This document shows positions 19,225-26,340 of a DNA stretch of 64,000 bases, one piece after another. The notes beneath the pieces are model-generated. The model made no database searches, was not told the DNA's origin, and saw nothing but the letters and a program-made list of their open reading frames with translations. Made by a program: the position numbers and the translations under genes. The first letter of the stretch is position 1. The number at the start of each line of letters is the position of its first letter. This stretch comes from a virus. Location of the stretch: positions 1-64,000 of the IMG/VR virus record IMGVR_UViG_3300012582_000004. The stretch is one strand, 5' to 3'.

Positions 19225-20213
19225 TTTTCTTTAAATTTTAAAATTTCATTCTCTATATTTTCCGTATCACTATCTTCTACCCATTGTGCGAAGTTATCTT
19301 TGGTAGATTTAAATTCTGTCATAAATTTACCTAATCTAATACCTTCTAATCCTGGTACTAATTTCTTAATTAAATCACCATTGAATTTTTGAGCCAAAGT
19401 TTTTCTAAACGCAACTTTAGTATTTAATTTTTCAACTTCAATACCGATATTAATTTTAAAGAAATCTTCGATAGAATTATGATAGAATGAGACATCCTTT
19501 CTCCATCTAAATTTCTTATTGATTTTATTTTCATCAAGCCAAGATAAAAATATAGAGTATGTTTTTCTTTTTTTATTTCTTGTTCTATTTTTAGAATCTA
19601 AATTTTCGTATTTAAAGATACTTGTAGTAAAATATCTACTCGAAATAACATACTTGAAAACATCTTCAATACTATTAAATCCTTCTAAATATCTTTCAAA
19701 ATTTAAATCTAAGAACTCATAAATTTTTCTTGGTTCTCTTGAAATTACAAGTTTACTATGTTCGTTATTAGTATAATCACTAAGAAAAATACTAAGCCCA
19801 TCAAATCCTAAGCTTAACCCCAATTGTCTCGCAAATGTACCAACTAAATTATTTAAATCATTGTAACTAAAATAAAAGTGAGCAGTTTCTAATTCTGATT
19901 CTTTAACTAAAATTAAATCAATTTGAAAATCTTTATATTCAAAGCTTACAACACCTGTATTAAAGAAAATATCCTTTGTATCAAATGTTTCTTTAATATA
20001 TTGTGTCATTTCAGCTTTCTCTGCTTCATAAACAATAGGTTCACCGACAATTATTACATCCAAATCACCAAAATCCTTCTTGTTAGAAAAATATTTTGTA
20101 GGTTTGGCCATAGGATATTTAGAAAGTAGTTTTTCCACTACTTCTTTTTCGATTAAAAGAAATTCATCAACTTCTAATCTTTTAGTTGCGATATGCAATG
20201 CTTTTCCACCCAT
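19212..20213 (-). CDS. Nucleotidyltransferase-like protein
   Basis: 333 residues. FGDLDVIIVGEP near 48 gives the GxxDxDxx-like metal site, and FQIDLILVKESE near 96 gives the third acidic strand of the pol-beta nucleotidyltransferase fold. SYNDLNNLVGTFARQLGLSLGFDGLS follows. It could modify tRNA or nucleotides; the tRNA-Lys gene and LysRS just upstream make tRNA a reasonable but unproven partner. Own promoter at 20227. Confidence 0.65.
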   Translation of the reverse strand: MGGKALHIATKRLEVDEFLLIEKEVVEKLLSKYPMAKPTKYFSNKKDFGDLDVIIVGEPIVYEAEKAEMTQYIKETFDTKDIFFNTGVVSFEYKDFQIDLILVKESELETAHFYFSYNDLNNLVGTFARQLGLSLGFDGLSIFLSDYTNNEHSKLVISREPRKIYEFLDLNFERYLEGFNSIEDVFKYVISSRYFTTSIFKYENLDSKNRTRNKKRKTYSIFLSWLDENKINKKFRWRKDVSFYHNSIEDFFKINIGIEVEKLNTKVAFRKTLAQKFNGDLIKKLVPGLEGIRLGKFMTEFKSTKDNFAQWVEDSDTENIENEILKFKEKMVS

Positions 20214-20226
20214 AGTAAATTATATA

Positions 20227-20258
20227 CAAAGATACTAAAAAGTTTGGACATATCCAAA
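20227..20258 (-). promoter_or_regulatory. Bacteroidetes-type sigma promoter
   Basis: Minus strand TTTG (20258-20255), 20 bases, TATCTTTG (20234-20227), 14 bases before the ATG at 20213. It lies just downstream of the tRNA-Lys(CTT) gene. Confidence 0.75.
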
Positions 20259-20265
20259 AATATAG

Positions 20266-20337
20266 TACAATCGGTGAGAATTGAACTCACATAATACTGG
20301 TTAAGAGCCAGTTGTGTAACCATTCTACCACAATTGC
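20266..20337 (-). tRNA. tRNA-Lys(CTT), copy 1
   Basis: 72 bases. Acceptor GCAATTG / CGATTGT pairs over 7 bp with two wobbles; anticodon arm ACTGG-CTCTTAA-CCAGT gives CTT; T-arm GTGAG-TTCAATT-CTCAC is perfect. The D-arm pairs poorly. CCA is not encoded. It lies 11 bases downstream of the LysRS gene. Confidence 0.85.
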
Positions 20338-20348
20338 ATACCTTTCCT

Positions 20349-21485
20349 TTAACAAGGGAAAGTAATAACATCTGAAATATTTCTGTAATTTAATGCTAAC
20401 ATAATTAATCTATCAATTCCGATGCCTACACCACAAGTTTGAGGCATACCATATGATAATGCTTGTAAATAATCTTCATCTACATTATTCATACGTTCCA
20501 TCATTTGTCTTTGTACTACAGCATCATTTTGTTCAGTATAACCATTGGCTATTTCCATACCATTTATATACAGTTCAAAACGTTCTGCTATACCATCAAC
20601 AGAAAATGCCAAAGGAGACATTTCTGATGGATGTCCACATACAAATGTAGGCTCTGTTAAAGACGGTTCAATTCTTTCAGAAAATAAATCATCCAATTGC
20701 TCTACTGTTAATCCATTTATATCAATACCAATTTCTCTTAACGAATCAATAAAATTAATTCTTCTAAATGGTGTAGTGATATTTAATATTTCAGAAACAA
20801 TTCTTTCTGTGAATTCTATACCCCATGTCCAATCAGAATCTAATCTATAAAATTCTAATAATGTGAATTCAGGATTATGATTTCTATCAATACCTTCGTT
20901 TCTAAAGCATCTGCTTATCTCATATACAAATGGTAAACCACCAACAATTAATCTTTTTAAATATAACTCAGGTGAAATTCTTAAATAAAAATTTCTATCT
21001 AACGTATTATGATTAGTTATAAATGGTCTAGCTGATGCACCACCATATTGTGGTTGCAATATAGGAGTTTCAACTTCTATAGCATCATTCGATTCCAAAT
21101 AATTTCTAAGTGTTCTAACTATTCTACTTCTTTCTCTAACTACATTTAATGATGTTGGATTTACTATCCAATTAAGTACTCTATTTCTTCTTTGAATATC
21201 AGTACCAACTTGTCCGAATGTTGCTTCATCATTAGATACTACTAATGGTAAGTTGTGTGGACATCTTGTAATTAATTCAAAATCAAATATCCTCCATGTT
21301 GGTTCACCTGTTCTTGTTATAAAATCTTCGTAAGAAGTTATTCTAATAATATCTCCTCTATTAAGTGTTCTAACTAATTCGAAGTTATTTGTTGTACCAG
21401 CATTTAAATATATTTGCTGATCATTTTGAAGATTCATAAAAATGGATCTACCCATTTCTCTGATATTATAAATTCTGTGTATCAT
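20349..21485 (-). CDS. lysS: Lysyl-tRNA synthetase, class II, shortened
   Basis: 378 residues against roughly 500 for cellular LysRS. A short anticodon-binding OB region remains (IHRIREMGRSIF-like start, GDIIRIT), then the catalytic core: VETPILQ (motif 1), FYLRISPELYLKRLIVGGL, SRCFRNEGIDRNHNPEF (motif 2, with the Lys-type ending), and GVGIGIDRLIML (motif 3). NGMEIANGYTEQN is the lysine-site strand. It should charge tRNA-Lys with lysine using ATP. It is flanked by tRNAs with CTT and TTT anticodons, so the phage carries both enzyme and substrates. Confidence 0.93.
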   Translation of the reverse strand: MIHRIYNIREMGRSIFMNLQNDQQIYLNAGTTNNFELVRTLNRGDIIRITSYEDFITRTGEPTWRIFDFELITRCPHNLPLVVSNDEATFGQVGTDIQRRNRVLNWIVNPTSLNVVRERSRIVRTLRNYLESNDAIEVETPILQPQYGGASARPFITNHNTLDRNFYLRISPELYLKRLIVGGLPFVYEISRCFRNEGIDRNHNPEFTLLEFYRLDSDWTWGIEFTERIVSEILNITTPFRRINFIDSLREIGIDINGLTVEQLDDLFSERIEPSLTEPTFVCGHPSEMSPLAFSVDGIAERFELYINGMEIANGYTEQNDAVVQRQMMERMNNVDEDYLQALSYGMPQTCGVGIGIDRLIMLALNYRNISDVITFPC

Positions 21486-21504
21486 AATAAATTATTTTTT
21501 TTAG

Positions 21505-21576
21505 TGCCTCCAGAAAGGATCGAACTTTCATAAACGGTTTAAAAGACCGTCGTATTAACCATTATACGATAGAGGC
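21505..21576 (-). tRNA. tRNA-Lys(TTT)
   Basis: 72 bases, full cloverleaf: acceptor GCCTCTA / TGGAGGC, D-stem GTAT / ATAC, anticodon arm ACGGT-CTTTTAA-ACCGT (TTT), T-arm GAAAG-TTCGATC-CTTTC, discriminator A. Confidence 0.92.
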
Positions 21577-21580
21577 AATG

Positions 21581-21668
21581 TGTATCGAGTGGGATTCGAA
21601 CCCACGTTGGAGATTTCTCTCATCAGATTAAAAGTCTGAACCGTTCGACCAACTACGGAAACCGATAC
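21581..21668 (-). tRNA. Class II (long variable arm) tRNA with anticodon TTT
   Basis: 88 bases. Acceptor GTATCGG / TCGATAC, anticodon arm TCAGA-CTTTTAA-TCTGA, variable arm GAGA-gaaa-TCTC, T-arm GTGGG-TTCGAAT-CCCAC. The D-loop contains GTTGGTCGAA as in Ser tRNAs. The anticodon loop is a standard lysine TTT loop, but long variable arms belong to Ser, Leu and bacterial Tyr tRNAs. Amino-acid identity is uncertain. Confidence 0.8.
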
Positions 21669-21675
21669 AAATATG

Positions 21676-21747
21676 TACGTCTGATAGGACTTGAACCTAT
21701 AACCCATCGGGTAAGAACCGATTGCTCTACATTGGAGCTACAAACGT
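21676..21747 (-). tRNA. tRNA-Lys(CTT), copy 2
   Basis: 72 bases with a clean cloverleaf: acceptor ACGTTTG / CAGACGT, D-stem GCTC / GAGC, anticodon arm ATCGG-TTCTTAC-CCGAT (CTT), T-arm ATAGG-TTCAAGT-CCTAT, discriminator A. Confidence 0.9.
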
Positions 21748-21761
21748 ATAAAATAAAAAAT

Positions 21762-21842
21762 CATCTCAAAATTACTTATGAGATGCTATACCTAAAGACA
21801 AAAAGATTCCTTTCTACTCTATTTTTATAGGTATAGCATCTC
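21762..21842 (-). promoter_or_regulatory. Two mutually exclusive hairpins upstream of a tRNA run
   Basis: A perfect 15 bp inverted repeat (21780-21794 with 21828-21842) shares its CATCTCA arm with a second 7 bp hairpin (21762-21768 with TGAGATG at 21779-21785). On the minus strand the second hairpin is followed by a T-run, like a terminator. It lies between the HNH gene and tRNA-Lys(CTT) copy 2 and may end HNH transcription or act as an attenuator. Confidence 0.55.
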
Positions 21843-21880
21843 TTTTCTTTTTCTTTATAATTAATATAGTTCTCATAATT

Positions 21881-22741
21881 TTAATTTTGTTTTTGATATT
21901 GTTTAATCCATTTTCTAATAGAATTGTCTGATACTTCGTATTTTCTACCAGTTGCAGAATAACCAATATCAGATACTTCTTTTAATAATTGCTCTAATGG
22001 AGGTCTTTCTACTTTTCTTCGTTTAATTTTAATACACTTGGAACATAATATACTACAATTGCGTATATTATTACCACATTCACATTTACCAACTTCTAAA
22101 TTTAAATTGTATTTAGCTTTTTTTATATTTCTATTTATTTCATCATTAGATCCAATAAATTTTAATTTATGATAACATTCAACACATGTTTTACTATCAC
22201 TATTAATCATTTTTTCACAATTAATTCCACCACATTTTTTATTCTTTTTTACATATTTTACATAATTTAAATCTAAGCCTTTATTCCCTCTACAATGTGT
22301 CGGTAATGTAGAATTACAATTTGCACAAACTATTCTTAAATTCTCTAATCTATTATCATCGGGTACACCATTTATGTGATCGAGAATTAAACTCATAGTC
22401 TTACCTTTCCAATTTTCATCTTGACCACATAATTCACATTCTCTATTTTTAATACCTTCCTTATATAATCTACATTTTAATTTGGAAATACTAACATATG
22501 GTGAATTTTCGATTAATACATCATTTATATTTAGATATTTTACTCCTTTTGATGTAGATTTTTTTGTTGATGCTTTTGGTTTAAAATGCTTAATATCAAT
22601 ATCGTATTTTTTAATATATCTTGTAAGAGTATTAAAATTCCCTCCAAAATTATTTAAACCTAATTCCATTAATACATCAGATTTATTACTATTTCTTTTT
22701 ATTATTTCTTTTAAATATTCTTCATTTTCCCAATAAAACAT
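21881..22741 (-). CDS. HNH endonuclease with extra zinc knuckles
   Basis: 286 residues. CELCGQ...LILDHINGVPDDNRLENLRIVCANCNS (about 100-145) is a complete HNH nuclease with its CxxC zinc ligands. Two more Cys clusters follow (CGGINC, CVEC; CECG, CSKC), and the C-terminus resembles the recognition helix of a helix-turn-helix (YSATGRKYEVSDNSIRKWI). It splits the tRNA array, a usual place for a free-standing homing endonuclease. Confidence 0.85.
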   Translation of the reverse strand: MFYWENEEYLKEIIKRNSNKSDVLMELGLNNFGGNFNTLTRYIKKYDIDIKHFKPKASTKKSTSKGVKYLNINDVLIENSPYVSISKLKCRLYKEGIKNRECELCGQDENWKGKTMSLILDHINGVPDDNRLENLRIVCANCNSTLPTHCRGNKGLDLNYVKYVKKNKKCGGINCEKMINSDSKTCVECYHKLKFIGSNDEINRNIKKAKYNLNLEVGKCECGNNIRNCSILCSKCIKIKRRKVERPPLEQLLKEVSDIGYSATGRKYEVSDNSIRKWIKQYQKQN

Positions 22742-22801
22742 GTTTGATATTTATTTTTATATATTAAATATCGAACCTTCTCGTCTTAAACTATCAATCT
22801 G

Positions 22802-22873
22802 TTATCCTGCTACGATTCGAACGTAGAACAAGTGAGCCAAAATCACTTATGATGCCAATTTCACTACAGGATA
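22802..22873 (-). tRNA. tRNA-Gln(TTG)
   Basis: 72 bases: acceptor TATCCTG / CAGGATA, D-stem GTGA / TCAT, anticodon arm AGTGA-TTTTGGC-TCACT (TTG), T-arm CTACG-TTCGAAT-CGTAG, discriminator A. Confidence 0.92.
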
Positions 22874-22874
22874 G

Positions 22875-22963
22875 TGGAAGTAGAGAGATTTGAACTCTCT
22901 GCGTTTCTTTAAATGTACAAGTTTTACAGACTTGTGCTAATCCGCCATCTTAGCAGTACTTCC
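22875..22963 (-). tRNA. tRNA-Tyr(GTA), copy 1
   Basis: 89 bases, class II as expected for bacterial Tyr: acceptor GGAAGTA / TACTTCC, anticodon arm CAAGT-CTGTAAA-ACTTG (GTA), long variable region, T-arm GAGAG-TTCAAAT-CTCTC. One base from tRNA-Gln. Confidence 0.9.
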
Positions 22964-22969
22964 TTATTG

Positions 22970-23054
22970 TGGGAGCAGATGGAGTCAAACCACCCGAAGT
23001 ATTTATACTAATCGCTTTACAGGCGATCCCGCTATCTCTACGGTATATACTCCC
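22970..23054 (-). tRNA. tRNA-Tyr(GTA), copy 2
   Basis: 85 bases: acceptor GGGAGTA / TGCTCCC, anticodon arm ATCGC-CTGTAAA-GCGAT (GTA), variable arm AGTAT-aa-ATACT, T-arm GGTGG-TTTGACT-CCATC. Its sequence differs from copy 1, so it is not a recent duplication. Confidence 0.88.
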
Positions 23055-23059
23055 TTTTG

Positions 23060-23133
23060 TAGCATGGGTGAGAATCGAACTCACTAATCGAATCTTCCAA
23101 TGATCCGATGCTTATAACCTTAGTCACCACGCT
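23060..23133 (-). tRNA. tRNA-Pro(TGG)
   Basis: 74 bases: acceptor AGCGTGG / CCATGCT, anticodon arm GGATC-ATTGGAA-GATTC (TGG), T-arm GTGAG-TTCGATT-CTCAC, discriminator A. The D-arm is weakly paired. Confidence 0.85.
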
Positions 23134-23145
23134 ATTCAATAAAAA

Positions 23146-23170
23146 ACCCAAAGCTTATTCAACTTCGGGT
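23146..23170 (-). terminator. Rho-independent terminator after micro-ORF 1
   Basis: Minus strand ACCCGAAG, 9-base loop, CTTTGGGT, then TTTTTT. It follows the 27-residue ORF and precedes tRNA-Pro. Confidence 0.75.
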
Positions 23171-23202
23171 ATATATTCTTATCTCATAATATTCTTGAAC
23201 TA

Positions 23203-23286
23203 TTACGTTCCGAATAGAGAATATACACCCATTACAGTTTTATACTGCGGCTGATACTGCTTATATTGTTGTTTTTTAGTTTTCAT
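23203..23286 (-). CDS. Micro-ORF 1, 27 aa, with KQYQPQY and GVYS motifs
   Basis: ATG at 23286, TAA at 23203. The peptide contains YKQYQPQYKTVMGVYSLFGT. Its core KQYQPQY-x4-GVYS is identical in the ORF at 23487, although the DNA differs at third positions (CGGCTG against CGGTTG), which indicates selection on the peptide. Each ORF is followed by a matching terminator. Function unknown. Confidence 0.65.
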   Translation of the reverse strand: MKTKKQQYKQYQPQYKTVMGVYSLFGT

Positions 23287-23349
23287 ATTTTATATTTACT
23301 TTCTAATTTTTTAATATCAATTATTTAGCCTCCCATAAGGGAATTGAAG

Positions 23350-23422
23350 CGGTACGTATCGGGTTCGAACCGATGTTCTTCTAGGCGACAGCTAGACATG
23401 TTGACCACTACACCAACGTACC
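23350..23422 (-). tRNA. tRNA-Asp(GTC)
   Basis: 73 bases: acceptor GGTACGT / ACGTACC, D-stem GTGT / ACAT, anticodon arm TCTAG-CTGTCGC-CTAGA (GTC), T-arm ATCGG-TTCGAAC-CCGAT, discriminator G as expected for Asp. Confidence 0.93.
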
Positions 23423-23435
23423 GTATATAAAAAAA

Positions 23436-23461
23436 AACCCCGAAGTTTTTAGCTTCGGGTT
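23436..23461 (-). terminator. Rho-independent terminator after micro-ORF 2
   Basis: Minus strand AACCCGAAG, short loop, CTTCGGGGTT, then a long T-run. The stem sequence CCCGAAG repeats that of the terminator at 23146. Confidence 0.85.
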
Positions 23462-23486
23462 GTATATCGTAAGAGAATCTTTACTC

Positions 23487-23594
23487 TTAAATTGCTATAA
23501 TATCTAAAGCAAAACTATATACACCCGAAGTACAATCATACTGCGGTTGATATTGTTTGTCTTGTTTTGCGATATTTGAAATTACAGTTCTCAT
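23487..23594 (-). CDS. Micro-ORF 2, 35 aa, paralogue of micro-ORF 1
   Basis: ATG at 23594, TAA at 23487. The peptide contains KQDKQYQPQYDCTSGVYSF and ends LDIIAI. It shares KQYQPQY-x4-GVYS with the ORF at 23203 and has the same downstream arrangement of stop, AT-rich spacer and CCCGAAG terminator. Function unknown. Confidence 0.65.
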   Translation of the reverse strand: MRTVISNIAKQDKQYQPQYDCTSGVYSFALDIIAI

Positions 23595-23773
23595 TGTTTT
23601 AGTCTTTGTATTATTATAACGTATATATTAGGAAAATGTTTTCCCTTTTTTAAATTATTTTAAAAAACTTATAAAATTGCTATCAGGATTGAATTTCAAT
23701 TTCGCATACAATAGTAATTACTCTATCAGTTATTCTCAAAACCATGAACTTAATCATGCTATTTACAAGTTTG

Positions 23774-23959
23774 TAGCGTGTACAGGATTCGAACCTGTGT
23801 TACCCAACCGAAAAGAAGGGTGTCCTAAATTAGTTAAACCGTAGTTTACAAGACTTCTAAATGTTTATGTCAGGAACGAACTGACAATTTCCACTACGGG
23901 TGTGTTACATTACACTAATAAACGAAATACTAATTCGGTGTCCGCTAGACGAACACGCC
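23774..23959 (-). tRNA. Glu-type tRNA interrupted by a 112-base insert in the D-loop
   Basis: The 5' part (GGCGTGT TC GTCT AGCGG, from 23959) and the 3' part (from TTTAGGAC to the discriminator A at 23774) together make a 74-base cloverleaf with a fully paired acceptor GGCGTGT / ACACGCT. About 112 bases lie between them, including a T-arm-like hairpin (GTCAG-TTCGTTC-CTGAC). Loop CTTTTCGG suggests TTC. It could be an intron or a disrupted gene. Confidence 0.6.
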
Positions 23960-23961
23960 TG

Positions 23962-24036
23962 TAGCCCGTGTAGGATTCGAACCTAACGTTTTCTACCTGA
24001 AAAGGTAGTCGTCCTGAGCCTATAGACGAACGGGCC
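23962..24036 (-). tRNA. tRNA-Glu(TTC)-like with 8-base anticodon loop
   Basis: 75 bases: acceptor GGCCCGT / ACGGGCT, D-arm TCGTCTATAGGCTCAGGAC as in Glu tRNAs, anticodon arm ACTAC-CTTTTCAG-GTAGA with one more loop base than normal, T-arm with a bulged T. Two bases from the interrupted tRNA. Confidence 0.75.
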
Positions 24037-24107
24037 ATGTCTCAGTTTATAAATCTTCTCCATCTAAGTGAAGGAGTCAACAAAACTCCACTGAGTAGTT
24101 TAGTTAG

Positions 24108-24181
24108 TAGCCCATGCAGGATTCGAACCTACGTTTACAATCTGAATAGAAAGTCGTCCTAAGCCTCTAGGCGAATGGGCC
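24108..24181 (-). tRNA. tRNA-Glu-like with 8-base anticodon loop
   Basis: 74 bases: acceptor GGCCCAT / ATGGGCT, Glu-like D-arm, anticodon arm ACTTT-CTATTCAG-ATTGT with two U-U mismatches and an 8-base loop, T-arm GTAGG-TTCGAAT-CCTGC. Anticodon TTC, or ATT if read from the usual offset. First tRNA after the promoters. Confidence 0.7.
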
Positions 24182-24196
24182 ATATAATCTTTTTTA

Positions 24197-24267
24197 TAAG
24201 GAAGTTTTCAGATTCAGGGGGTTCAGCTACTTAGTTTCACTTCCTTGCCTAACCTTAAACTTCCTTA
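24197..24267 (-). ncRNA. Structured leader RNA of the tRNA transcript
   Basis: An 11 bp perfect inverted repeat, TAAGGAAGTTT (24197-24207) and AAACTTCCTTA (24257-24267), encloses a 49-base G/C-richer segment. The promoter at 24268 would start transcription at or just inside its right arm, so the hairpin would form the 5' end of the tRNA transcript. Between 24275 and 24465 no gene is seen, only the two promoters. Confidence 0.5.
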
Positions 24268-24299
24268 CAAAGTTAGTTATTATTTTTCAATATTCCAAA
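24268..24299 (-). promoter_or_regulatory. Bacteroidetes-type sigma promoter P1 of tRNA array
   Basis: Minus strand TTTG (24299-24296), 20 bases, TAACTTTG (24275-24268). About 55 bases around it are imperfectly repeated at 24367, giving tandem promoters for the tRNA array. Confidence 0.75.
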
Positions 24300-24366
24300 T
24301 TTTTGTGAAGTATTTATAAGAATTTTTAACTTTTTCTTCTGTTATATTCCCGTCTGAAATACAATA

Positions 24367-24398
24367 CAAAGTTAATTCTTATTTTTGAATTTTCCAAA
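24367..24398 (-). promoter_or_regulatory. Bacteroidetes-type sigma promoter P2 of tRNA array
   Basis: Minus strand TTTG (24398-24395), 20 bases, TAACTTTG (24374-24367), the same elements and spacing as P1 99 bases downstream. The two copies are a duplicated promoter block. Confidence 0.75.
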
Positions 24399-24465
24399 TC
24401 ATTTCAAAATATTTATTAAATGATTTGTATATAGAGAACGAATGCGAACTTAAAATGTTATATTT

Positions 24466-24927
24466 TTAATAAGAAAGATTTACATTTAAATATTCAGGTT
24501 TACCAGAAACATCTTCTAATACCCATATAGGTTTATCAAATTCAAATCCTTCAAATGGTACTTCTATTTCTGCTACTACGAGTCCATCATTTTTTTCTTT
24601 AAAGAAATCTATTTCCCATTTTAGATTATCATTTATTTTAATAACAAATCTCTCTTTCATTAATTTTTTAGAACATAATGATAACATAGCGATAGCATCA
24701 GTATAAGGTATTTCATATTCAAATTCTTCTCGACTAATTAATCCTTTACCTTTAACTGTAATGAAACCTTGATTACTACCATATGATTGTAATGGGTGTT
24801 TAGTACAAATCCTAACCCTAACAGTTGGATTATCTGAAAGATAACCCTGTACTATAGTAACACTATTGTCCAATTCAGGTAAAAGCTCTTTATTTACTAA
24901 AAACTTATATTCTATTTCTTTTGCCAT
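24466..24927 (-). CDS. CYTH-domain (triphosphate tunnel) protein
   Basis: 153 residues, the length of a single CYTH domain. EIEYKFLV at 4-11 is the ExExK signature; VRVRI, FITVKGKG, REEFEYEI, WEIDFF and VAEIEVP supply the alternating charged strands of the tunnel. These enzymes hydrolyse triphosphate or thiamine/RNA 5'-triphosphates with metal. All signature residues are intact. Last protein gene before the tRNA promoters. Confidence 0.88.
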   Translation of the reverse strand: MAKEIEYKFLVNKELLPELDNSVTIVQGYLSDNPTVRVRICTKHPLQSYGSNQGFITVKGKGLISREEFEYEIPYTDAIAMLSLCSKKLMKERFVIKINDNLKWEIDFFKEKNDGLVVAEIEVPFEGFEFDKPIWVLEDVSGKPEYLNVNLSY

Positions 24928-24937
24928 ATACTTTAAA

Positions 24938-25468
24938 TTAAGGAACTAAAAGTTCATTATTGTTTGCACCTCTTATACGTTTTATATCATCCTCTGATAA
25001 TACTTTACCTTTGATTTTATTCATTACTTCTTTAACTTTTTTAGTATCTATTTTATTCACTTTTTCAATTAATACACTGCTATCATATTCATTTTCAACA
25101 ATATCAATAGGGATTGGAAAATAATTCATTAAGAAATCTTTTTCGGTATACCAGTTTTTACAATCAACGCCAGTATCACTTATTTTTCTAATGTAGACTT
25201 CGACACTACTTGATGTTCTATTGGTTATGATACAAATCCTATTAGTTTTTAAATCAACGCAAATGCCGTAAGCGGGTAAGATAGTAAAATGTGTATTAGT
25301 TTTAACATATTCAGTTGTAATTCTAATCATCATTCTTCTTTGTGGCGCAATACTTAAATTTTCAAGTCTCCACCAACCAAAATCTTCATCATCAACTTTT
25401 ACATATAGATGTTCCCAATTGTTATGACTTAAGAATCCAACCGTACCTTTTTTAAAATTATTACTCAT
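24938..25468 (-). CDS. Hypothetical protein
   Basis: 176 residues, mixed alpha/beta, with a helical C-terminus (KVKEVMNKIKGKVLSEDDIKRI). No recognised family. Ten bases upstream of the CYTH gene and probably cotranscribed. Confidence 0.65.
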   Translation of the reverse strand: MSNNFKKGTVGFLSHNNWEHLYVKVDDEDFGWWRLENLSIAPQRRMMIRITTEYVKTNTHFTILPAYGICVDLKTNRICIITNRTSSSVEVYIRKISDTGVDCKNWYTEKDFLMNYFPIPIDIVENEYDSSVLIEKVNKIDTKKVKEVMNKIKGKVLSEDDIKRIRGANNNELLVP

Positions 25469-25518: not shown

Positions 25519-26340
25519 TTAAACTTTAATAAATTGAAAAAGATTAGGATAATCGGTGATAATACCATCAACGCCTTGTTCTATAAGACTTTCCATTATA
25601 TTTAAATCGTTTACAGTCCAAGGAATAATACCCATCTTATTATTTTTACAGAATTTAATGCTGTCTTCTGTAATTAATTTATAATTAGGACTATAAAAAT
25701 CAGGAGTAAATCCTAATATAGATAAATTTGTTTCCATAGTTAAATCATTCTCTACTAATAATGCAATTTTTATTTCTGAATATTTATTTTTTAAATATTG
25801 AAGTGGTTTAACATCAAAAGAACGAATAATAATCCTATCTTGAATTTTAAACATATAAATTATAGGAATTAGTAAATCAACAATTTCTTCTGGTGAAGGT
25901 TGTGATATATCATATTCATTAAGGCTTGATTTAACCTCAATATCATAAGTTATAGATGCTATACCATACTTCTTAGTATATCTCTCAACTTCTTCTACAA
26001 CATCGTATAATAAAGGTTTAAATGCTTTAAAATTCATTTGTGTGTCAAAATCAGGATGCTTTTTTAATCCAACATCAAATTTTTTTATTTCTTCGTATGG
26101 CATTTTATAGAGATTAAACATTTTATCATTATCAATCTCTTTTCCATCTGATGTAAGACAAAATTTAGAATTCATATATGGTTCATGTGAAACTACAAGT
26201 TGTCTATCTTGACTTACTACAATATCAAGTTCTATCGCATTACAGCCAAGTTTAACAGCTTCTATGAATGATATAATGGTATTCTCAGGCATAAGCCCTC
26301 TACAACCTCTATGTCCAGTTTTGTAAAAATTAGTATTCAT
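25519..26340 (-). CDS. Glycerophosphodiester phosphodiesterase (GDPD)
   Basis: 273 residues, TIM-barrel GDPD. GHRGCRGLMPENT at 7-19 holds the first catalytic His and Glu, AIELDIVVSQDRQLVVSHEP near 35 holds the metal acids and second His, and the C-terminal GIIPWTVND...GVDGIITDYP is typical of the family. It hydrolyses glycerophosphodiesters to glycerol 3-phosphate. No signal peptide, so cytoplasmic. It could salvage phospholipid head groups or phosphate. Confidence 0.9.
   Translation of the reverse strand: MNTNFYKTGHRGCRGLMPENTIISFIEAVKLGCNAIELDIVVSQDRQLVVSHEPYMNSKFCLTSDGKEIDNDKMFNLYKMPYEEIKKFDVGLKKHPDFDTQMNFKAFKPLLYDVVEEVERYTKKYGIASITYDIEVKSSLNEYDISQPSPEEIVDLLIPIIYMFKIQDRIIIRSFDVKPLQYLKNKYSEIKIALLVENDLTMETNLSILGFTPDFYSPNYKLITEDSIKFCKNNKMGIIPWTVNDLNIMESLIEQGVDGIITDYPNLFQFIKV

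Follow-up and report, generated by a model that had tools for sequence, protein, structure and literature searches.

Ribosome-mediated transcription attenuators are well known from the amino-acid operons of Escherichia coli, where trpL, hisL, leuL and pheL are leader ORFs of this type, and the E. coli pheST operon is attenuated via the PheM leader. The two micro-genes analysed here very probably encode the leader peptides of two tandem attenuators of the same kind, situated in a phage tRNA/aminoacyl-tRNA synthetase operon. This conclusion is drawn from the sequence and from RNA modelling, from which we infer translation, stalling and read-through of the leaders. As in trpL, hisL, leuL and pheL, there is a short leader ORF with runs of cognate codons and a choice between antiterminator and terminator hairpins, codons and structure being the features tested here, and, as in that type, stalling on a scarce charged tRNA is proposed to turn the genes on. 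However, the phage leaders would regulate viral tRNA genes (and synthetases) and each lists up to five amino acids, with seven leaders in a single genome covering all 20. The pheST operon is similar in that leader-peptide attenuation acts on synthetase genes (here those for LysRS, ThrRS, IleRS, AsnRS, AspRS and a HisRS-like protein), but it concerns a single amino acid, is on the host chromosome and contains no tRNA genes. The T-box riboswitches of Firmicutes also allow the state of a tRNA to control synthetase genes via the choice of terminator or antiterminator, but they bind the tRNA directly and do not involve translation.

Phage tRNA arrays that counter tRNA-cleaving host defences (PMC10264068, PMC11555353) are comparable in that phage tRNAs replenish or replace host tRNAs. 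The tRNA supply here appears to be controlled by demand; PMC10264068 does not deal with regulation and mentions neither leaders nor attenuation. In huge phages, a genome may encode as many as 67 tRNAs and 15 synthetases (PMC7162821, the main text of which does not mention leaders or attenuation). No description of ribosome-mediated attenuation acting on phage tRNA genes was found in the open-licence literature, although absence there is no proof. Attenuation itself is known, but the phage tRNA gene target, the multi-amino-acid leaders and the genome-wide coverage appear to be new.

The window, i.e. the whole 64,000-nucleotide stretch of DNA analysed, is part of a 347,857-base virus record, and the stretch tested is identical to LR756504.1, a 636,363-base genome from an uncultured phage (window position = LR756504.1 position minus 378,399). 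We refer to LR756504 as the home genome and take it to be part of the huge-phage genome set of Al-Shayeb et al. 2020. The minus-strand ORFs, of 27 and 35 codons, lie exactly where a sequence-only reading of the window had placed them (Table 1). The core of ORF1 is KKQQYKQYQPQYK, and the operon behind it consists of tRNA-Pro, Tyr, Tyr, Gln, four tRNA-Lys and LysRS. The ORF2 core is KQDKQYQPQYD; past its terminator, tRNA-Asp comes first and the ORF1 unit next. That reading had reported cores identical at 11 of 15 positions with silent DNA differences, and this is correct. The 11 shared core codons contain five nucleotide differences, including Ser TCT/AGT, and all five are synonymous, so there is good reason to believe that the reading frame matters. 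The putative promoter upstream of leader 2 has an exact copy before the Trp/His/Phe (FWH) leader (LR756504 309633) and a copy with 1 mismatch before the Thr/Asn/Arg leader (135640); beyond these three leader sites, the next best match in the 636 kb has 2 mismatches. The promoter pattern had 0 matches in a scan of IMG/VR.

Table 1. Features of the two leader units in the window and of the five further leaders in the home genome. Positions are those of the window except for the last five rows, which are LR756504 positions.
Feature	Position	Strand	Details
Promoter-like element, upstream of leader 2	23611..23628	-	ATATATACGTTATAATAA; putative function
Leader ORF 2	23487..23594	-	MRTVISNIAKQDKQYQPQYDCTSGVYSFALDIIAI, 35 aa
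Control codons of leader 2 (segment 1)	23535..23567	-	K Q D K Q Y Q P Q Y D
Segment 2 of leader 2	23514..23531	-	ACTTCGGGTGTATATAG, codons T-S-G-V-Y-S; pairs with terminator 5' arm
Segment 3 of leader 2	23452..23475	-	Antiterminator partner overlapping terminator 5' arm
Terminator of leader 2	23429..23461	-	AACCCGAAGC-loop-ACTTCGGGGT + U tract; stem 23461-23437
tRNA-Asp(GTC)	23349..23422	-	First gene past attenuator 2; ARAGORN
Leader ORF 1	23203..23286	-	MKTKKQQYKQYQPQYKTVMGVYSLFGT, 27 aa
Control codons of leader 1 (segment 1)	23239..23277	-	K K Q Q Y K Q Y Q P Q Y K
Segment 2 of leader 1	23212..23230	-	GGGTGTATATTCTCTATTC, codons G-V-Y-S-L-F; pairs with segment 3
Segment 3 of leader 1	23160..23184	-	Antiterminator partner
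Terminator of leader 1	23141..23170	-	ACCCGAAGTT-loop-AGCTTTGGGT + U tract; stem 23170-23146
tRNA-Pro(TGG)	23060..23134	-	First gene past attenuator 1; by eye and homology
tRNA-Tyr(GTA)	22969..23054	-	
tRNA-Tyr(GTA), second copy	22874..22963	-	
tRNA-Gln(TTG)	22801..22873	-	
HNH endonuclease-like ORF	21881-22741	-	Between tRNA-Gln and tRNA-Lys, inside the tRNA operon
tRNA-Lys, three genes (CTT, TTT, TTT)	21504..21747	-	
Lysyl-tRNA synthetase, class II	20349..21485	-	378 aa; Pfam and NCBIfam profiles
tRNA-Lys(CTT), fourth Lys tRNA	20265..20337	-	
Leu/Ser/Cys leader	588402-588491	+	MKAMILSLCLSLSLSLQKLGVVGVCKVIS, core LSLCLSLSLSL; before Leu, Leu, Ser, Cys, Ser, Ser, Leu, Leu
Trp/His/Phe (FWH) leader	309669-309752	+	MKNLTNIFWHFHFKATRRLGMENLYVS, core FWHFHF; before Trp-like tRNA, His, Phe
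Glu/Ala/Ile/Val/Gly leader	222598-222494	-	MKTVNTNIAIVEIAVIGGAEEGVMGVYCLNSKTS, core IAIVEIAVIGGAEEGV; before Glu, Ala, Ile, Val, Gly, Glu
Thr/Asn/Arg/Ile/Met leader	135606-135511	-	MTTIIRNMNNNINRTRTTLGLSDKVLSFMKR, core TTIIRNMNNNINRTRTT; before Thr, ThrRS, Asn, Thr, Arg(acg)
Arg/Ile/Met leader	133129-133070	-	MKTIAMIIRMRIIRPKMLG, core MIIRMRIIR; before Arg(tct), Ile, Met, next after the Thr/Asn/Arg cluster

The genes named earlier as next in line, tRNA-Pro and tRNA-Asp, were both recovered. The tRNA-Pro(TGG) gene was missed by ARAGORN and by Rfam, but it has a cloverleaf-like fold and matches the tRNA-Pro(tgg) of LR745206 and LR756502 in two blocks (87-90 %). The LysRS scores 240 bits with Pfam tRNA-synt_2 and 359 bits with NCBIfam PRK00484, which is under the cut-off of 468, and it is shorter than bacterial LysRS. 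Other tRNA clusters of LR756504 are, like this one, interrupted by HNH-like ORFs. Near-identical tRNA-like genes with a TTC anticodon region are found at 23961-24036 (-) of the window and at L013:16122-16197 (-); they could not be assigned by ARAGORN and have an apparent 6-base anticodon loop (CTACC-TTTTCA-GGTAG). A degenerate relative is at 24108-24181, and no leader was found for the tRNA-like genes in 23961-24181. A further segment (23773-23959, -) has tRNA-like ends, GCGTGTTCGTCTAG and ACAGGTTCGAATCCTGTACACGC, with about 100 extra bases between them, and may be an interrupted tRNA. Upstream of the tRNA array are genes for a CYTH-domain protein (24466-24927, -) and a glycerophosphodiester phosphodiesterase (GDPD; 25519-26340, -).

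An intrinsic terminator containing CCCGAAG follows each ORF, as had been reported, with this motif in the 5' arm of the stem. Both ORFs contain GVY codons, GGGTGTATAT, with complementarity to these 5' arms (ATATACCC and ATATACAACCC), and, judged from the pairing potential, transcription attenuators are laid out in this way. Each of the seven home-genome leaders (the two in the window and the five others in Table 1) has a segment 2 within the 3' part of its ORF that is complementary to segment 3, which overlaps the 5' arm of the terminator, and by complementarity the 2:3 pairing (antiterminator) and the 3:4 pairing (terminator) are mutually exclusive. The antiterminator duplex of leader 2 is predicted at -21.1 kcal/mol, a strength equalled by 1 of 300 synonymous recodings, and that of leader 1 at -20.5 kcal/mol, for which the recoding test was not significant (24/300). 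Synonymous recoding weakens the 2:3 pairing in most leaders but not significantly in leader 1 and several relatives, and this test is biased because the 46 leaders considered below were chosen partly on duplex energy. The 1:2 (protector/pause) hairpin is strong in ORF2 and the Leu/Ser/Cys, Glu/Ala/Ile/Val/Gly and Thr/Asn/Arg leaders, and weak in the Trp/His/Phe and Arg/Ile/Met leaders.

When the whole hairpin was folded at equilibrium, the terminator of the Leu/Ser/Cys leader had a probability of about 0.9, which fell to 0-0.3 with a ribosome stalled on the control codons; for ORF2 the corresponding values were 0.8 and 0-0.4. The effect was similar in the Thr/Asn/Arg and Glu/Ala/Ile/Val/Gly leaders and moderate in ORF1. 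However, equilibrium folding gave no ribosome effect for the Arg/Ile/Met and Trp/His/Phe leaders, where the terminator probability was about 0.9-1.0 at all positions. A kinetic, co-transcriptional effect would therefore be required, and for this reason a co-transcriptional model was used, in which the RNA up to segment 3 was folded with the ribosome placed at each codon in turn. For all seven home leaders, and for the HFHFHF leader described below, this model gave an antiterminator probability of about 0.5-0.9 with the A site in the control codons, collapsing, mostly to 0.0-0.3, within about two codons past the control run. For several leaders it also predicts antitermination without any ribosome or after release at the stop codon, and basal read-through may thus be high. 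Taken together, several features of an attenuator were found, namely a leader ORF with cognate codons, a terminator before the first gene and an exclusive antiterminator formed from the 3' part of the ORF, and in silico, under the co-transcriptional model, the position of the ribosome sets the structure, which switches where the control codons end.

The two ORFs had been reported as a pair, and this was incomplete, as the genome's other main tRNA clusters are also preceded by this architecture, the peptide differing in every case. The window led to the prediction that other clusters have leaders with other codons, and this was borne out when the entire LR756504 sequence was searched, yielding the five further leaders in Table 1. 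A terminator separates the ORF from the tRNA in every one of these, and they cover the 15 amino acids beyond those of the window leaders, the seven cores jointly naming all 20. The exceptions are single tRNA genes (Met or unassigned) at LR756504 280875-281120, 336529-336606 and 461088-461164, for which no leader was detected. Only one candidate tRNA-Trp (CCA) was recognised in the genome, by eye and homology, at L022:9817-9897 (+) (LR756504 309817-309897). Its anticodon arm apparently precedes a D-arm-like stretch (GTATAATTGGGTGAAAATAC), and this odd order indicates that the tRNA may be rearranged or misread. A leader-like ORF (MKTVLKFIIKTIIVSRYDRVYID) with a terminator and antiterminator pairing was also found directly before the phage EF-G gene (TIGR00484, 963 bits) at L010:7987-8058 (-) (LR756504 67987-68058). 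The codons in this leader are mixed and we would guess that it is perhaps a sensor of general translation speed.

The match between codons and operons greatly exceeds what chance would give. It was assessed against windows of the same length as the leaders, drawn at random from long ORFs of LR756504. The longest runs made up solely of residues from the downstream tRNA set were 11, 6, 16, 17, 9, 13 and 11 residues in the seven leaders, and 0 of 40000 random windows reached any of these. Leader 2 has an 11-residue run of D, P, Y, Q and K only (0/40000) and leader 1 a 13-residue run of P, Y, Q and K only (0/40000). As the tRNA sets of two leaders include the tRNA-Pro and tRNA-Trp identified by eye and homology only, these were also left out: without Pro the count for leader 1 was still 0/40000, and without Trp it was 14/40000 for the FWH leader. 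When the seven peptides were permuted over the seven operons, only 1 of 5040 arrangements, the true pairing itself, reached the observed residue match. An unbiased scan of the 636 kb, in which pairs of a small ORF and a terminator were sorted by antiterminator energy, placed all six of the non-FWH leaders within the top seven rows; the remaining row was an overlapping ORF on the terminator of one of the leaders, and the FWH leader was in row 12. A match is also seen at the isoacceptor level. Where tRNA-Ile(UAU) is the only Ile tRNA of an operon, the leaders have 14 AUA among 19 Ile codons, the other 5 being AUU/AUC, and where only tRNA-Ile(GAU) is present, 15 of 17 are AUU/AUC and 2 are AUA; Arg codon groups lean the same way, but these Ile and Arg counts overstate the number of events because homologous leaders of related genomes are not independent.

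Relatives were selected as phages sharing the DnaK-like protein and phages with related tRNA genes, and were read around their tRNA clusters. A blind rule yielded 46 leader candidates in eight genomes including the home genome. Their mean match was 0.374 vs 0.174 under within-genome permutation (0 of 20000 permutations reached the observed value), and without the home genome it was 0.365 vs 0.177 (0/20,000). The rule picked the wrong overlapping ORF in two relatives (L130 8544 and L132 15119), and both were retained in the statistics. Among the leaders found, MTTSFQQQQQQQINRTD (QQQQQQQ), at L125 7938-7991 in LR756502, precedes four tRNA-Gln, MKTTMTITISRSRSSRSLPLVV (SRSRSSRS) precedes Ser, Arg, Ser, Ser, Arg and Ser tRNAs, MTTITNIAYYYEGERSS (YYYEGE) precedes Glu, Glu, Tyr, Glu, Glu and Tyr tRNAs, and MKNLNLNIVNPQPQVVIDQDPD is found before Asp, Asp, Pro, Ser, Gln and Gln tRNAs. 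In Lak-A1, which uses code 15, MKTLNMTYGMHPVCGMVHMFPCGGGRPM precedes the tRNAs for His, Pro, Arg, Arg, Gly, Cys and Met, and matching leaders are also present in LR756500 and in the relative G007; for six further blind picks, 59 of 20,000 permutations reached the observed match. No convincing leader was seen in the scan of LR756508 and LR756511, which are richer in GC (about 0.4), or in the ThrRS region of Sinorhizobium phage Phosso, and one IMG/VR record (G006, GC about 0.4) is a doubtful case.

Where Lys, Tyr or Glu tRNAs are in a different operon, their leader codons have moved with them. G003 has its Glu/Tyr and Gly/Ile/Ala tRNAs in a joint operon with a single leader, IYIGYIAEGGYEAGS, that names all of them, whereas in G004 there are two operons and two leaders. 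In the home phage, the Lys tRNAs have moved to the Pro/Tyr/Gln operon and so have the K codons. The scan also revealed leaders with no tRNA behind them, where the next genes are translation genes. TIIIIR is found before IleRS (674 bits, over the cut-off), NNRNR before AsnRS (over the cut-off) and an ArgRS-like protein (weak, 39 bits), and KDDRY/NDDRF before an aspartate-tRNA ligase (over the cut-off in both tested); an ADDCL copy precedes a class II synthetase assigned by Pfam to the same family as the aspartate-tRNA ligase. HFHFHF precedes a short HisRS-like protein (211 aa, lacking the C-terminal part) and then a PheS-related protein that matches the 'SrmL mystery ligase' (434 bits), both encoded at L145:217-1958 (+), and this leader suggests that the SrmL-type ligase is tied to Phe or His.

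In the proposed mechanism, RNA polymerase would start at a shared promoter and transcribe the leader while a ribosome translates it. With all of the named tRNAs charged and plentiful, the ribosome would pass the control codons and move onto segment 2, blocking the 2:3 pairing, and the terminator would then form, leaving the tRNA genes off. If one of the named tRNAs were scarce (depleted, cleaved or uncharged), the ribosome would stall at its codon with segment 2 free to capture segment 3, and the polymerase would read through into the tRNA and synthetase genes. Leader 2, which names Asp plus Lys, Gln, Tyr and Pro, would gate tRNA-Asp and all genes behind it, and leader 1, which names Lys, Gln, Tyr and Pro, would gate the Pro, Tyr, Tyr, Gln and Lys tRNAs and LysRS. 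As the other five attenuators cover the remaining 15 amino acids, the phage would tune each part of its own tRNA set to demand.

The sequence-only reading had suggested an undescribed gene family, with a host-takeover peptide or a leader peptide as options. The part that stands is that the ORFs look translated, have private terminators and are undescribed, but the family is not defined by KQYQPQY-x4-GVYS. The conserved feature is a rule, by which each leader's codons spell the tRNAs behind it, in line with the leader-peptide option; the peptide itself changes completely between operons. Functional micropeptides that happen to lie in the tRNA array with their own terminators would account for those terminators and for cores conserved with synonymous changes, but this is highly improbable, as the analogous ORFs at other tRNA operons encode unrelated peptides matching their own operons, and the conserved GVYS tail is explained by the pairing of its codons with the terminator arm. 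Because the peptide changes with the operon, the host-takeover role is rejected. Nor does the peptide have a homologue in 50,697 phage records (tblastn with both peptides) or 2.9 million viral contigs, except in the same genome. In IMG/VR the pattern YQPQYx4G[VI]Y matched once, by chance, in a glycine-rich protein, both peptides found nothing in PHROGs and Pfam, and synthetase-based IMG/VR searches returned the other half of the same genome or nothing. That the elements are instead structured RNAs, either T-box-type riboswitches sensing tRNA or small RNAs with terminators, with coincidental ORFs, is barely conceivable. The leader RNAs of both ORFs are strongly folded (z -3.4 and -4.8) and T-boxes also sense tRNA upstream of terminators, but the in-frame codon runs after the ATG match whole tRNA sets rather than single specifier codons, and the changes in the cores are synonymous. 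In addition, no T-box or other known RNA family was matched at the leaders in Rfam (T-box: whole window at gathering score, 20000-25000 at E<=10), and the absence of a stem I/antiterminator covariance match speaks against a T-box riboswitch.

The same attenuator anatomy could serve a different signal, namely amino-acid starvation or a general slowing of ribosomes, with expression of the tRNAs and synthetases forming part of a growth-rate response. Classical attenuators respond to the level of charged tRNA whatever its cause, and the mixed-codon leader before EF-G suggests that general translation speed is sensed somewhere. However, extra tRNA genes are no cure for amino-acid starvation, and the isoacceptor-level match of the Ile codons points to particular tRNAs, and we consider this signal unlikely, albeit a serious contender. 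For the tandem tRNA-supply attenuators favoured here, a broader interpretation can be offered tentatively, at somewhat less than even chances: huge phages may have a complete, demand-driven tRNA supply, in which multi-codon leaders read the level of every tRNA class during infection and release only those tRNA and synthetase genes whose products are in short supply. Such a system would be both a detector of, and a countermeasure to, host or phage tRNA cleavage, besides adjusting translation to the AT-rich phage genome.

The reason for the presence of tRNA genes in phages, and the way in which they are controlled, are questions of decades' standing. As the codons state what each tRNA operon would respond to, both the 'tRNAs on demand' idea and the idea of a defence against tRNases become directly testable. 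The codon-equals-tRNA rule is also a simple rule for annotating tiny ORFs in tRNA arrays. Leader-peptide attenuation would reach beyond amino-acid biosynthesis, taking in tRNA genes as well as viruses, and the combinatorial leaders would allow several amino acids to be sensed at once. The scheme was seen in at least nine of the huge-phage genomes examined, one of them from a Lak phage of Prevotella, and regulation of this kind may therefore be general among low-GC huge phages.
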